Assembly (NCBI RefSeq): GCF_013401555.1
Contig: NZ_CP058552.1
Span: 7,068,001-7,132,000, forward strand
Length of the DNA stretch: 64,000 nt
Direction: 5' to 3'
Origin: Paenibacillus sp. E222
GTDB taxonomy: Bacteria; Bacillota; Bacilli; Paenibacillales; Paenibacillaceae
The position numbers were made by a program, and so were the translations under genes. The notes under the pieces are model-generated. The model had not been told where the DNA came from. It did no database searches and saw nothing but the letters and a program-made list of their open reading frames with translations. Shown piece after piece: positions 34,499 to 41,456 of this stretch. Position 1 is the stretch's first letter. Each line of letters starts with the position of its first letter.

Positions 34499-34776
34499 GT
34501 CCTTGAATAACCTCCTGTTGATCGGGAAGGTAAACTAGCTCTCCATTAAAACCATTTATATGTTATGCACCAGTTGTCATCATGTTGGAATCGTTAAAAT
34601 GATTCATTTTCTGCAAAATCCTCATGTATTAACATGCCTTCTTTCAGTTTATCATTGATTGACCAAAAAGACTACACGCCCCAGGCACTCCTAATCGGTG
34701 CATTTGCTCTGTATTTCATGTAAACTGGGATATAGTTGTCATATCAAGAACTGGACCTATGGAGGAACTTAATTTT

Positions 34777-36735
34777 ATGCTGCTGCAAGTATCCGGAATT
34801 ATCAAACGTTTTGGTGTCGATCCAATCCTGGACGGCGTGAACTTACAAATATTAGAACGCGAACGCATCGGCCTCGTTGGGGTTAACGGTGCAGGGAAAT
34901 CCACTTTGCTCAAAATCGTGGCTGGGGAAATGTCCTATGATGGCGGACAGATTTTCAAATCCAAGGAAACAACGCTTGGTTACCTCGCCCAGAACAGCGG
35001 ACTGCAATCCGATCGCTCCATATGGGAAGAAATGATGAACGTATTCGCCCATCTGACCCAGGCTGAAGCGGATTTGCGTCAGATGGAGCAGGATATTGCT
35101 GACCCCTCGCAGATGGAAGATGAAAAAAAGTATGCCGATCTGCTTGAACGTTATGCTAAACGCTCGGACTGGTTCAAGGATCATGGCGGTTATGAGATGG
35201 AGACCCGCATTCGCAGTGTACTGCACGGAATGGGCTTTGGTGAATTTTCACCTGATACCCAGATTGCCACACTGAGCGGTGGGCAAAAGACACGGCTTGC
35301 GCTTGCTCGCATTTTGCTTCAGGCCCCTGACCTGCTCATGCTGGACGAGCCTACCAACTATCTCGACATTGCCACCCTCACGTGGCTGGAAGATTACCTC
35401 AGAGGTTATTCCGGCGCGCTGCTGGTAGTATCCCATGACCGGTATTTCCTTGACCGGCTTGTAACAACCATTGTGGAGATCGAACGACACCGCTCCAAAA
35501 AATATACCGGCAATTACAGTAGGTACATGGAACTGAAAGCTGCGGAGTACGAAAGCCAGATGAAGCAATACGAGAAACAACAGGATGAAATCTCCAAAAT
35601 GGAGGACTTTGTTCAGAAGAATATCGTGCGTGCTTCAACGACCAAACGGGCACAGAGCCGCCGCAAAGCACTTGATAAGATGGAACGGCTCGACAAACCG
35701 ATGGGAGATCTGAAGAAAGCTCATTTCTCTTTTGAGACGGCTGTCATGTCCGGTAAAGAAGTGCTCCGTGTGGATCAGCTTTCCGTGGCCTACGATGAGG
35801 CTTCGCCGTTGTTCCGCAATGTATCTTTTGATCTAAGACGCGGGGAAACGGTTGCTTTAATCGGTCCAAACGGTATAGGTAAATCCACCTTGCTCAAATG
35901 CCTCACTGGAAGTTTGCGTCCTGTAAGCGGTGAGATCCAATGGGGTACCAAGGTGCAGATTGGCTATTACGATCAGGAGCAGACGGGGCTTAATCCTTCC
36001 AATACGGTATTGGAAGAGCTGTGGAGTGCCTATCCAGGCATGGAGGAAGCACGGATTCGTACGGTGCTGGGCAACTTCCTGTTCAGTGGAGATGATGTAC
36101 TCAAAAAGATCTCATCGCTCAGCGGTGGAGAAAAAGCTCGTGTCTCCCTCTCCAAGCTCATGCTCAAGGAAGCCAATATGCTCATTCTGGATGAGCCTAC
36201 GAACCATCTTGACCTGTTCGCCAAAGAAGTACTTGAAGCAGCACTGATGGACTATGAAGGCACGTTGCTGTTCATCTCGCATGACCGGTATTTCCTCAAT
36301 AAAATGGCTGAGCGCATTGTTGAACTGCATCCGGGTGGAACAGAACATTACCTGGGCAATTATGATGACTATGTGGAGAAGAAACAGGAACTTGAAGATA
36401 TCGCTCGCGAAGCGGCTGAAGCACGCCTTGCCTCTTCCAAAAACTCGGCTAAGTCTGATCCAGCCCTATCCGCAACCGAAAAATCCGGAGCCGCCTCATT
36501 CGAAGCGGACAAGCAGGCCAAGCGCGAAGAACGTAACCGCCAGCGCAAGCAGGAAGCTCTGGAACAACAGATTTCGAAGCTGGAAACGGAGATTACGGAG
36601 CTTGAGGCTCAGATGGCCCTGCCTGAAATATATCAGGATTACATGAAGCTGCAAGAACTTCAGGAGAAGGCAGAGGATCACAAGCTTCAACTTGCCAAGG
36701 CTTATGAAGAGTGGGAAGAATTAGCTTTGGAATAA
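34777..36735 (+). CDS. ydiF: ABC-F family ATPase (YdiF type)
   Basis: The 652-aa soluble protein has two ABC domains: Walker A GVNGAGKST and GPNGIGKST; signatures LSGGQKTRLALARILL and LSGGEKARVSLSKLML; Walker B LLMLDEPTNYLD and LILDEPTNHLD. The linker between them (about 240-320) is the charged P-site motif. A C-terminal coiled coil (about 540-652) carries EAR/KQ-rich heptads. ABC-F proteins act on the ribosome to relieve stalling or protect it from drugs. Length and neighbourhood match YdiF of B. subtilis. ATG 34777 lies 11 bases behind GGAGG; an ATG at 34759 overlaps that site. It has its own terminator. Confidence 0.93.
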   Translation: MLLQVSGIIKRFGVDPILDGVNLQILERERIGLVGVNGAGKSTLLKIVAGEMSYDGGQIFKSKETTLGYLAQNSGLQSDRSIWEEMMNVFAHLTQAEADLRQMEQDIADPSQMEDEKKYADLLERYAKRSDWFKDHGGYEMETRIRSVLHGMGFGEFSPDTQIATLSGGQKTRLALARILLQAPDLLMLDEPTNYLDIATLTWLEDYLRGYSGALLVVSHDRYFLDRLVTTIVEIERHRSKKYTGNYSRYMELKAAEYESQMKQYEKQQDEISKMEDFVQKNIVRASTTKRAQSRRKALDKMERLDKPMGDLKKAHFSFETAVMSGKEVLRVDQLSVAYDEASPLFRNVSFDLRRGETVALIGPNGIGKSTLLKCLTGSLRPVSGEIQWGTKVQIGYYDQEQTGLNPSNTVLEELWSAYPGMEEARIRTVLGNFLFSGDDVLKKISSLSGGEKARVSLSKLMLKEANMLILDEPTNHLDLFAKEVLEAALMDYEGTLLFISHDRYFLNKMAERIVELHPGGTEHYLGNYDDYVEKKQELEDIAREAAEARLASSKNSAKSDPALSATEKSGAASFEADKQAKREERNRQRKQEALEQQISKLETEITELEAQMALPEIYQDYMKLQELQEKAEDHKLQLAKAYEEWEELALE

Positions 36736-36761: not shown

Positions 36762-36797
36762 CAAAAGCTGATTCCTAAATGGAATCAGCTTTTTTTG
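36762..36797 (+). terminator. Terminator of the ABC-F gene
   Basis: AAAGCTGATTCC pairs with GGAATCAGCTTT, followed by seven T residues. Confidence 0.95.
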
Positions 36798-36894: not shown

Positions 36895-37122
36895 TTATCC
36901 ACAGAAAAGCAAGATAGCAAGCAATTGAATTTATTTAATTATACGGCGGTAGAATAGCTTTTTGCACACAAAAACCATATTTATCCACCAAGTTATCCAC
37001 GTTATCCACAACTTTGTGGATATAACCCGGCCATTCTATCCCCCAAAACCCATTATTATCGAAAACATTACTGGTTTGACTTTGAGATAGTTACCCACAA
37101 TTTATACTGAATATGTGGATAA
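36895..37122. other. Cluster of seven DnaA boxes
   Basis: TTATCCACA occurs exactly at 36895-36903 and 37002-37010, and as its complement at 37114-37122. One-mismatch copies lie at 36981-36989, 36993-37001, 37015-37023 (complement) and 37091-37099. Four boxes are packed within 43 bases (36981-37023). No dnaA or dnaN gene is near, so this is not the usual oriC but a DnaA-binding locus like the B. subtilis DnaA-box clusters. Confidence 0.85.
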
Positions 37123-37180
37123 CTATAATCACATCTTGACAAACACATTCGTGCTTTCAATTTTTTTCTCCTATAAAGGA

Positions 37181-37258: not shown

Positions 37259-38815
37259 TTACGCATGCACGGATTCATCCATTTCGAAAGTCTCCGCCTT
37301 TAGTCCGGCCGCATTACAAGCTGCAACATACGCCAGACCCGCAGCCATGACAATATCATTGTGCGTGGCGGTTCCTCTGAATTCACGTCCTGCACGCTCC
37401 ACGGTAACCGCAGCTTCTGCACTCGCAGCCTCTCCTCCGCTCAGTGCGTGCATTTCCATATCGACAAACGTAATGTCGTCCGAGATACTTTGACCAATCG
37501 CACGAATCGTTGCATCTACCGGACCACCGCCAACGGCAGAATAGGATTGCTCCCCTGCGCTCGTGCGAATACGAACTGCTGCCATTCGATCCGTCATGCT
37601 GCCCGCCGTAACCTGCAATTCAACCAGTTCATAATCCTGTGCAGGAATATTCATGGTCTGGCTCACCATCTGCAATAACTGGTCATCACTGACCACCTTC
37701 TGTTGATCGGCGGTTTCTTTAAATATCTCATACAGTTGTTCCATTTGCTGCTCATCCGGTTCAAAGCCATATTTGCGAACCCGATCCTTCAAAGCGTGAC
37801 GCCCGGAATGTTTGCCCAGAATAATCATGCTGCGTGGAATGCCCAGCGCTTCCGGGTCCATAATCTCATACGTACTCCGATTCTTGAGCAGACCATCCTG
37901 GTGAATACCAGACTCATGCTGGAAGGCATTGCGCCCTACTACCGGTTTGTTGTAGGCAATCGGGAAATGCATCGCACGGCTAATTTGACGAGAAGTCTCA
38001 TACAACTGGTTCAGTTTGATATTTGTGGTTGCGCCGATTACATCTCCCCGTGTCTCCAGAGCCATAATCAGCTCCTCCAGGGCACAGTTGCCCGTCCGTT
38101 CTCCCACACCGTTGATGGTTACTTCAATCTGGGAAGCACCGTTGGCGATCGCAGCCAGACTGTTGGCAACCGCAAGTCCCAGATCGTTATGACAGTGTGC
38201 GCTGTAACGTACCTTGTCTCCGCCTCTTGCACCCTCACGTACCTGACGGAACATCTCTCCATATTCATGCGGCAATGCATACCCGACCGTATCTGGCAAA
38301 TTGATAATACTTGCTCCTGCTTCAATAGCTACTTCAACCATCTCAATCAGATCATCCATCTTTGTACGAGCCGCATCCATGGCGGTGAACTCCACAATAT
38401 CCGTGAACTGACGTGCATAGGAGACCATCTCCCGGGCAGTAGCCACGACTTCACTACGCGGTCGGCGCAGTTGATGCTCAATATGGATGTCCGAAGAGGA
38501 GATAAACAGATGAATTCGGCGGCGCGCTGCGTCAGCCGTTGCTCGAACAGCTGCATCAATATCCCCTTTGACCGCACGTGCGAATCCGCAAATCTCCACG
38601 TTTTGCAATTGTCTGGAAATCGCCTGAACCGCCGCGAACTCACCTGGACTTGAGATCGGGAATCCAGGCTCGATGACGTCGATGCCCAGAGAAGCCAGTT
38701 GATGTGCCAGTTCAATTTTTTGTTCAGGCTGCAGACTCGCTCCCGGTGCTTGCTCTCCATCGCGCAGTGTTGTATCAAAAATCTCAATCATGCGTTTGTT
38801 ATTGTTCGTTGTCAT
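37259..38815 (-). CDS. leuA: 2-isopropylmalate synthase
   Basis: The 518-aa enzyme condenses acetyl-CoA with 2-ketoisovalerate, the first step of leucine synthesis. The catalytic barrel has FDTTLRDGEQAPG, HCHNDLGLAVANSLAA (metal His pair), NGVGERTGNC and HESGIHQDG; the C-terminal 130 residues form the LeuA regulatory domain. Length fits B. subtilis LeuA. ATG 38815 follows GGAGG by nine bases; in-frame ATG/TTG codons just before it are too close. Two leucine T-boxes precede it, which confirms the leucine role over citramalate synthase. The rest of the leu/ilv operon is absent, and tsaD lies upstream. Confidence 0.93.
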   Translation of the reverse strand: MTTNNNKRMIEIFDTTLRDGEQAPGASLQPEQKIELAHQLASLGIDVIEPGFPISSPGEFAAVQAISRQLQNVEICGFARAVKGDIDAAVRATADAARRRIHLFISSSDIHIEHQLRRPRSEVVATAREMVSYARQFTDIVEFTAMDAARTKMDDLIEMVEVAIEAGASIINLPDTVGYALPHEYGEMFRQVREGARGGDKVRYSAHCHNDLGLAVANSLAAIANGASQIEVTINGVGERTGNCALEELIMALETRGDVIGATTNIKLNQLYETSRQISRAMHFPIAYNKPVVGRNAFQHESGIHQDGLLKNRSTYEIMDPEALGIPRSMIILGKHSGRHALKDRVRKYGFEPDEQQMEQLYEIFKETADQQKVVSDDQLLQMVSQTMNIPAQDYELVELQVTAGSMTDRMAAVRIRTSAGEQSYSAVGGGPVDATIRAIGQSISDDITFVDMEMHALSGGEAASAEAAVTVERAGREFRGTATHNDIVMAAGLAYVAACNAAGLKAETFEMDESVHA

Positions 38816-39002
38816 ATTCATCAACCTCCATCAAATTTGAATGTATATTGGATTTTGGGGATGTGAACCAGGCGTTCACTTCCCGTTTTCTATGTTTATT
38901 CATTTTGCATTCCATGCCGATGTGCACGTCGACTTGCACGCCGGACATATTTCTTTGTCTGAACCATGATTGATTCCCATTGCCCACCCTGCTGCCGGCA
39001 GC

Positions 39003-39882: not shown

Positions 39883-40938
39883 CTACAGCGATTGAACAGA
39901 CCATGCCTCAAGTGAAAGTCCCGGATCAGCCTTGGCATCGAATTCCGAGATTTCTCCCCGCTGCCATTTCAAATACGCCGCAGCTCCAATCATGGCGGCA
40001 TTGTCGGTACAATACTCCATTGGCGGGATCAGCAATTCGAGCCCTTCCTTCGCACAACGCTCCTGCAAAGCTGAACGCAATCCGCGGTTTGCAGCAACGC
40101 CACCGCATAACAGCAATTGACGCGATCCATATTCACGGACAGCCCTTACCGCTTTTTCTACCAGCACTTCGACGACAGCTTCCTGAAAGCCTCGTGCCAC
40201 AGCGGATGGTTCAAGCGTTTCTCCACGCATTTTGGCTTGATTCAAAACATTCAGTACAGCAGACTTCAGGCCGCTAAGGCTGAAATCATACGAATCGGCT
40301 TCCAGCCAGACGCGTGGCAAAGGTACCACCTGCTCTGCTTCAGCAGCCATCCGGTCCACATGCGGTCCTCCCGGATAAGGACAACCCAGTGCACGCGCCA
40401 CTTTGTCATAAGCCTCGCCTACAGCATCGTCACGCGTACGTCCGATCAGTTTGAACTTGCCTTCGGATTCCATATGCACAAGCTCGGTATGACCACCCGA
40501 AACCACCAGTGCCATCGCTGGATATTGCAGCTCATGGGTAAGTCTGTTGGCATAGATATGTCCCGCAATATGATGTGTGCCAATGAGCGGTTTGCCAAGG
40601 GCCATGGCCATGGTTTTCGCAGCTACGATGCCGACCAGCAATGCACCAACCAGTCCAGGCCCTTGCGTCACAGCAATCGCACTTAGATCACGCGGACGGA
40701 TGCCGGATTGCTCAATAGCCTGTTCCAACATCAGTGTAATGACTTCCACGTGTTTACGCGAAGCCACTTCAGGCACAACCCCGCCAAATGCCTTATGTGT
40801 CTCGATCTGACTGGAGATCAGATTGGACAACACTTCCCGTCCATCCTTGACTACCGCTACGGATGTTTCATCACAGCTTGTCTCCACGGCCAATATATAA
40901 GATGGTGCTGAACTTACCTTTTCATTGAAATCCTTCAT
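39883..40938 (-). CDS. tsaD: tRNA t6A threonylcarbamoyl transferase TsaD
   Basis: The 351-aa protein transfers the threonylcarbamoyl group to A37 of ANN-decoding tRNAs. It has [13 protein letters not shown] at the N-terminus, [11 protein letters not shown], and the metal-binding HIAGH (His123/His127). It works with TsaB and TsaE, encoded directly upstream. The start ATG 40938 overlaps the rimI stop (ATGA), and the longer frame is rejected on that ground. It is the last gene of the tsaE-tsaB-rimI-tsaD operon. Confidence 0.97.
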
Positions 40939-41456
40939 GAATCCGTTACGCTTCCTTCCTCTTCGCCGCTCCGGCTCGCAGGCGGCAAATTCGCCCACAT
41001 AATCATCGCATCTTCCCCATTGTCGGAGTAATACCCTTTGCGAAGACCAGCCGATTCAAACCCTTTTTTCTGATACAAGCTCTGGGCAATCCGATTCGAA
41101 ACCCTGACTTCCAGCGTCATTCGCTCCATCCCGAGATAAGTCGCTGTTCTCATCAGTTCGTCCAGCAGTTTCTCGCCGAGCTTGCGTCCACGATAAGCTT
41201 CACGGACAGCGATATTGGTAATGTGGGCTTCATCCATGATCGTCCACATGCCGGCATAGCCGATCGCTGTACCTTCCAATTCCATAACCATATATTTAGC
41301 AAAATGATTGTGTGTCAATTCATTCTGAAATGCTTCTTCCGTCCAGGGCAGGGTGAAGGCCTCATGTTCAATAATCATGACATCGGGAATATCCTCCAGC
41401 GTCATGAACCTGAACTGAAGCGCTGCTTCCTGCTCGTCACTCTCCACATTGTCCAT
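40935..41456 (-). CDS. rimI: Ribosomal protein bS18-alanine N-acetyltransferase
   Basis: The 173-aa GNAT protein has the RimI pattern: [53 protein letters not shown] (acetyl-CoA loop) and [23 protein letters not shown] 41456 follows GGGAGGGG. A charged C-terminal tail (SRSGEEEG) is present. It is 16 bases behind tsaB and overlaps tsaD by four bases, as in many Bacillota. Confidence 0.95.

Follow-up and report, generated by a model that had tools for sequence, protein, structure and literature searches.

Can a cluster of DnaA boxes that lies far from dnaA be an inherited element of replication control? The question is raised by seven DnaA boxes in the non-coding interval between an ABC-F ATPase gene and leuA, in a 64,000-nucleotide stretch of the Paenibacillus sp. 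E222 chromosome (NZ_CP058552.1, positions 7,068,001 to 7,132,000), here called the window. We suggest that the cluster is probably an inherited DnaA-sequestering element, orthologous to the gcp-ydiF cluster of Bacillus subtilis, that restrains initiation. The boxes are present, their clustering is not due to chance, and their position and spacing are conserved among relatives.

Seven DnaA boxes in a gene-free interval

Within 228 bases (36895-37122) there are seven boxes of the TTATCCACA type, of which three match exactly and four differ at one base; four of the seven lie within 43 bases (36981-37023). This is as the sequence-only reading of the window had described it. Its description of the stretch as gene-free and AT-rich also held: GC content is 34.6% in the cluster against 46.0% in the window, and no open reading frame (ORF) of at least 80 amino acids overlaps positions 36895-37122. 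The boxes are grouped here into blocks A, B and C (window coordinates).

36895..37122, no strand: whole DnaA-box cluster, non-coding (boxes, ORF check, conservation, permuted controls)
36895..36903, + strand: DnaA box, block A, TTATCCACA (sequence match; exact in 17/17 own-genus loci)
36981..36989, + strand: DnaA box, first of block B, TTATCCACC (last base C, T or G, never A, in 17/17 own-genus loci)
36993..37001, + strand: DnaA box, second of block B, TTATCCACG (sequence match and own-genus comparison)
37002..37010, + strand: DnaA box, third of block B, TTATCCACA (abuts the second; the chromosome's only mismatch-free adjoining pair)
37015..37023, - strand: DnaA-like inverted box, ATATCCACA (13 bases after block B; in 16/17 own-genus loci)
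37091..37099, + strand: DnaA box, first of block C, TTACCCACA (identical variant in 17/17 own-genus loci)
37114..37122, - strand: DnaA box, inverted, block C, TTATCCACA (an inverted box lies 101-124 bases after block B in the 69 family loci measured)

Permuted 9-mers do not cluster in this way. Among 400 of them, the maximum number of sites per 300 window bases was at most 1 in 175, 2 in 191, 3 in 30 and 4 in 4, while the real box reached 7. Window-wide, 29 boxes with up to one mismatch were counted against 18.5 expected, a number reached in 0 of 100 shuffles, and the exact box occurs 115 times in the 7,516,894-base chromosome against 39 for the reversed control. The adjoining pair TTATCCACNTTATCCACA has one mismatch-free copy in the chromosome, at the cluster. 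The B boxes of the window cluster have C or G as their last base. Two strict paired patterns miss the cluster: TTATCCACAN{0,30}TTATCCACA gave 0 matches in the genome, and TTATNCACAN{0,30}TTATNCACA gave 3, one of them at oriC and none at the cluster.

The genome encodes DnaA and YabA. Its single DnaA-domain match lies at chromosomal positions 1,192,312-1,192,797, at a distance of 1.60 Mb or 21% of the chromosome from the cluster (about 7,105,000). The dnaN and recF genes adjoin dnaA at 1.19 Mb, and eight boxes lie within about 357 bases upstream of dnaA, confirming that the window cluster has none of the three genes nearby.

The cluster sits inside a 523-base gap, and both genes next to it read towards it.

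34759..36735, + strand: ABC-F ATPase gene of ydiF type, left neighbour (ORF; two ABC_tran stretches, ABC_tran_Xtn, ABC_tran_CTD)
36763..36793, + strand: intrinsic terminator-like hairpin after the ABC-F gene (1 found against 0.3 expected in shuffles)
37259..38824, - strand: leuA, 2-isopropylmalate synthase, right neighbour (HMGL-like, HCS_D2 and LeuA_dimer domains)
39883..40998, - strand: tsaD (gcp), tRNA t6A transferase (TsaD domain, 321 bits)

A known RNA element was considered and rejected, as three sub-threshold Rfam matches all end before the cluster and overlap the terminator hairpin. No ParB/parS site was found in the window at up to two mismatches from the consensus. The closest named relative among the matches listed is Paenibacillus taichungensis NC1 (YdiF 100%, LeuA 99% and partial TsaD 100%).

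Conservation of the cluster between ydiF and tsaD

The family sample consisted of 76 Paenibacillaceae loci from 17 genera, read downstream of the ABC-F orthologue, 41 of them hand-picked for genus spread or taken from the best rows; two of 19 genera were left out (g10, with no ABC-F match, and g14, with the gene in two pieces). Family orthologues of the ABC-F protein share at least 59% identity against about 37-41% for paralogues. At least five boxes within 450 bases were found in 71 of the 76 loci, and permuted 9-mers (n=300) reached five sites in a mean of 0.01 and a maximum of 1 of them. Three of the five exceptions (two in g3, one in g16) have a like arrangement on other contigs, beside leuA or 3' of tsaD, reached via tsaD or an adjoining-box match. 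The cluster is therefore found in 74 of the 76 loci and in all 17 sampled genera, either between ydiF and tsaD or next to one of leuA and tsaD.

The neighbours, scored with a crude ORF caller in 70 family loci and 35 others, are less constant. In the family, the left neighbour is ydiF in 48 loci, with ydiF 12-14 kb off in two, and the right neighbour is leuA in 38, tsaD in 2 and other or unresolved in 30. The cluster holds its interval despite genes inserted on either side. The equivalent ydi-like neighbourhood proposed earlier is thus right in that a ydiF-type gene and tsaD flank the cluster, with the qualification that leuA is often the right neighbour.

In other families of the class, 40 loci were hand-picked among the best-scoring ABC-F rows: 32 have at least five boxes and 35 at least four, and permuted 9-mers reach five in none. 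The 32/40 overstates the rate because of this choice of loci. Clusters of two further genomes (G129, G256) were found from the tsaD side, bringing the count to 34/40, and reading 25 further genomes from tsaD detected at least five boxes in nine (G139, G160, G119, G214, G148, G476, G153, G124, G475). Combined, at least five boxes are present in 43 of the 65 other genomes and in 24 of the 36 other families, a sample that was partly hand-picked. The remaining genomes are distributed as follows.

4 boxes: G455, G155, G201, G123, G121
3 boxes: G140, G223
2 boxes: G134, G242
1 box: G133, G189, G120, G143, G308, G425, G141
0 boxes: G246, G380, G132, G461, G302, G137

The G140 contig stops 500 bases from tsaD, and G302, G132, G133 and G246 were covered to 1.5 kb from tsaD (G246 also to 4.5 kb from ydiF); two other clusters of family f10 lie about 2 kb from tsaD. 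Ten families had no genome with more than three boxes (f5, f17, f18, f19, f22, f25, f26, f27, f46, f49), and f6 and f8 had four. In G380 (f17) three adjoining pairs were found, all within about 1.1 kb of the dnaA domain. The f18 genome has no cluster within 1.5 kb beyond tsaD; sixteen boxes occupy about 333 bases directly upstream of its dnaA (L314:3175-3507), possibly an enlarged oriC array.

This search of related tsaD-ydiF regions was among the checks proposed in the sequence-only reading, and in most of the regions the boxes are there. Its suggestion of a locus kept in position across families stands for the 24 families counted above and does not extend to all families sampled. In 39 one-piece genomes, with positions entered by hand, the separation of cluster and dnaA amounts to 13-26% of the chromosome within the family and 5-16% outside it; since the distance varies from 5% to 26%, it is the gene neighbourhood that is kept and not the relative distance to dnaA.

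The Paenibacillus B-block pattern was also run over a wider contig collection, giving at least 119 stretches, of which 80 loci were listed. Of these, 51 are of Paenibacillaceae type (one titled Bacillus sp.), and every one is at ydiF, leuA or tsaD. The other 29, not of this type, map to different places, including dnaA or recF in two cases; the triple-box motif thus also occurs away from the tsaD-ydiF locus. Lineages outside the class may keep their own non-oriC DnaA clusters. In loci of Lachnospiraceae type (L203, L235, L232, L255) an array precedes an hpf/secA-like pair, and in the Selenomonas type (L204, L242, L266) an array lies between CYTH-like and MgtC-like genes, all named by eye. Separately, loci of f12, f20, f21, f23 and f28 have a gene of about 710-850 amino acids between ydiF and the cluster, starting beside the cluster (e.g. 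L080:2129-4390); the single copy searched has no Pfam family match at 0.001.

Box arrangement and helical phase

Many family clusters share one arrangement. Block A consists of one box, or two 12 bases apart; block B of TTATCCAC[C/T/G], 12 bases, a variable box, 9 bases and often TTATCCACA; and block C often of a forward box followed 22-23 bases on by an inverted box, with an additional TTGTCCACA 11-12 bases beyond the inverted box in several genera. In genera g2-g5, g8, g9, g11, g12 and g17 the first B box is missing or other deviations occur. An inverted box 12-13 bases after block B was found too in all four f12 loci. When 23 sequences from 8 genera were aligned and read by eye, the conserved columns fell almost wholly inside boxes; the spacers have little shared sequence, while their lengths and the box orientations are largely kept. 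The conserved short stretches outside boxes are CTATCCCC and TTGACAA after block C. The latter, at 37136-37142 in the window, is kept in several genera and is possibly the site of another protein; by eye, no -10 element is evident at normal spacing from it in the window.

The distances between blocks form a ladder, measured without two of 74 loci (L050, L069). From block A to the B pair (72 loci) they are 97-98, 105-108, 116-118, 125-127 and 136, plus isolated values of 94 and 121, and from block B to the inverted C box (69 loci) 101-104, 111-115 and 121-124. At a period of about 10 bp, the strength of phasing (R) for unique genus values is 0.77 and 0.82, which none of 2000 uniform draws reached. 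Both values are inflated by common ancestry and by the choice made between the A boxes; some steps of the ladder, such as 106 and 118 in g13, depend on which of the two A boxes, 12 bases apart, can be recognised.

Phasing was clear outside the family, where 504 same-strand distances of up to 200 bases, from 40 clusters of at least four boxes, gave R 0.58 at 10.8 bp; 500 random placements, which shuffle positions only, gave at most 0.195. When each of 25 families was represented by one locus (200 draws), R was at least 0.558 at 10.8 bp (null maximum 0.203), and distances above 25 bases alone, in all outside-family loci, gave 0.555 at 10.9. Opposite-strand distances gave 0.376 at 10.9 (random maximum 0.207). 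The families are not independent in this respect, because patterns such as 43-9-22 recur in several. Inside the family (one locus per genus, 15 genera), phasing was weaker on the same strand (R 0.34 at 9.7; random maximum 0.243) and stronger between opposite strands (R 0.59 at 11.1; random maximum 0.331). For the window cluster itself, the forward boxes (five, too few for a test) gave R 0.87 at 10.8 and 0.40 at 10.5. For comparison, R in six upstream oriC arrays (60 same-strand distances; three of eight dnaA loci began at the contig start) was 0.19 at 10.7 and peaked with 0.32 at 8.2. In the clusters, the boxes tend to lie on a common face of the helix, clearly outside the family and more weakly inside. 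Since the place, the slot-specific boxes and the helical phase persist in many families while neighbours and spacers change, selection on the arrangement itself is suggested.

Probable sequestration of DnaA and other explanations

Smith and Grossman (2015) list a region 'downstream of gcp; downstream of ydiF', with 10 sites, among eight high-affinity DnaA regions of B. subtilis (PMC4447404), in agreement with the cluster beside gcp that the sequence-only reading had named. The apparent dissociation constant of this region was 0.15 uM for ATP-DnaA against 0.33 uM for the ADP form, with a 16-fold ATP preference at 55 nM; according to these authors, the regions are too few to tell what sets the ATP-DnaA preference (PMC4447404). 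Deletion of six B. subtilis clusters leads to early initiation (Okumura 2012, as reported in PMC5295017 and PMC13220808), and the six are treated in passages of these reviews as a sink of modest effect.

The B. subtilis gcp-ydiF cluster, one of the six outside oriC, shares with the window cluster the interval at the 3' ends of tsaD and ydiF, the multiple boxes, the intergenic setting and the location off oriC; the window differs in having leuA between cluster and tsaD. The relative origin distance is 21% in the window against about 15% in B. subtilis (calculated with the published summit at 627,955 in 4.2 Mb). The likeness is drawn from the published position of the B. subtilis cluster, where DnaA binding was measured in vitro, whereas here it is predicted from the boxes.

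From the B. subtilis work we infer replication control by the window cluster, which would be the Paenibacillus counterpart of the gcp-ydiF cluster by common position and probably by descent. DnaA, preferentially ATP-DnaA, would be expected to bind it cooperatively. The core would be two adjoining head-to-tail boxes, in many cases preceded by a third at 12 bases. An upstream box or pair and a downstream inverted box would flank this core at about 90-135 bases. ATP-DnaA held there would be less free for oriC, and initiation would be delayed or steadied; passage of the fork, about 21% of the chromosome from the origin, would double the number of clusters and the sink. DnaA binding in this species, its ATP preference and its negative effect on initiation are expected by analogy.

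Among the Escherichia coli loci, datA is likewise a DnaA-binding locus outside oriC that lowers active DnaA for initiation, as predicted for the window cluster, and differs in promoting DnaA-ATP hydrolysis with IHF (PMC13220808). DARS1 and DARS2 are also non-coding loci outside oriC that act on DnaA, as predicted here, but they reactivate ADP-DnaA, and the sign expected for the window cluster is the opposite (PMC13220808). A fixed box arrangement outside oriC, which is a mark of datA and DARS, was found in the window cluster. In Streptomyces, a central DnaA-box cluster is conserved and thought to limit initiation; it lies at another locus and in another phylum. B. subtilis is not known to have SeqA.

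Several points weigh against an inherited sequestering element. Two family loci, both of genus g5, have fewer than five boxes at this place (two in the interval of G068, and none across the whole 15 kb ydiF-tsaD interval of G078), as do 22 of the 65 other genomes. The best period differs, being 10.8 outside the family and 9.7 (same strand) or 9.9-10.0 (block distances) inside. About 10-fold overproduction of DnaA in Bacillus did not cause over-initiation (PMC13220808), and no DnaA binding or replication data in any Paenibacillus were found in the literature searched. Plain titration needs box number only and leaves the kept spacing and phase unexplained: either cooperative ATP-DnaA binding demands the geometry, or the complex does something more. 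In the latter case the phased array would form a defined ATP-DnaA complex that alters the nucleotide state or releases usable DnaA, like datA or DARS. We consider this unlikely, even though spacing, orientation, slot-specific variants and helical phasing are conserved beyond what titration needs, same-strand phase is weak in the six oriC arrays, and according to a 2026 review it is not known if any regulators balance DnaA-ADP/ATP interconversion in B. subtilis (PMC13220808). The same review reports the absence from B. subtilis of datA and DARS, and of homologues of IHF and Hda (PMC13220808); the argument is drawn from the arrangement, and cooperative binding might by itself require phasing. 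At the oriC of Thermotoga, the complex is most abundant with two boxes of like orientation spaced 2 bp apart, and helical phase matters to the DnaA assemblies, since a 5 bp insertion hurts unwinding and a 10 bp insertion does not (PMC10316083). A wider proposal is doubtful, if possible: in most sampled families (24/36 besides Paenibacillaceae) the cluster would be an inherited, helically phased scaffold with selected geometry, on which an ATP-DnaA complex changes DnaA activity, a Bacilli counterpart of datA/DARS and not a passive sink.

Control of leuA, the ABC-F gene or tsaD by DnaA bound at the cluster is improbable. DnaA acts as a transcription factor at some B. subtilis regions, though the gcp-ydiF cluster lies downstream of both its genes (PMC4447404). 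The neighbours are convergent in only 41/70 family loci and 15/35 others (crude ORF caller), and in 18/35 others the left gene, often of about 750 amino acids, has its start next to the cluster and points away from it; in the window, however, both neighbours end at the cluster, and between lineages the neighbours change while the cluster stays. A promoter or operator for the neighbours was rejected, since the 3 promoter-like matches do not rise above background (2.4 expected). That the cluster is a secondary or relic origin is very improbable: its box number is near that of oriC (7 in 228 bases against 8 in about 357 upstream of dnaA), but the normal dnaA/dnaN/recF locus with boxes lies elsewhere, neither dnaA nor dnaN stands beside the cluster, and no DnaA-trio run was found in it. 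With one regular expression for the motif, three or more [AT]A[AG] triplets occurred once in the gap, outside the cluster, and on these grounds the origin was rejected. Chance or composition retains hardly any probability, AT-rich as the stretch is, since permuted 9-mers do not cluster as strongly in the window or at the same place in relatives (116 loci, 76 of the family and 40 others) and the cluster is conserved; chance clustering was rejected by this control.

The sequestering element that we favour belongs with the known DnaA-box clusters of B. subtilis type; its wide conservation and phasing, of which no report was found in the literature searched (Okumura 2012 and Ishikawa 2007, not among it, may describe the conservation), are apparent additions. 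The conserved geometry makes sink or structured regulator an experimentally separable question, and the distance ladder with the slot variants provides a comparative key to what sets the ATP-DnaA preference.

Other groups of DnaA boxes were noticed (chromosomal positions, neighbours named by eye). Four boxes within about 114 bases lie near oriC, at about 5 kb (1198262-1198375), between a GntR-like regulator gene and a yidC-like gene. Candidate extra clusters are an intergenic group of five at 602449-602758, next to TetR-like and solute-binding-protein-like genes, and one of four at 1174566-1174650, next to two small genes. In the genome G078, six boxes in another arrangement lie at 4.58 Mb (4578900-4579200), possibly a moved or substitute cluster.
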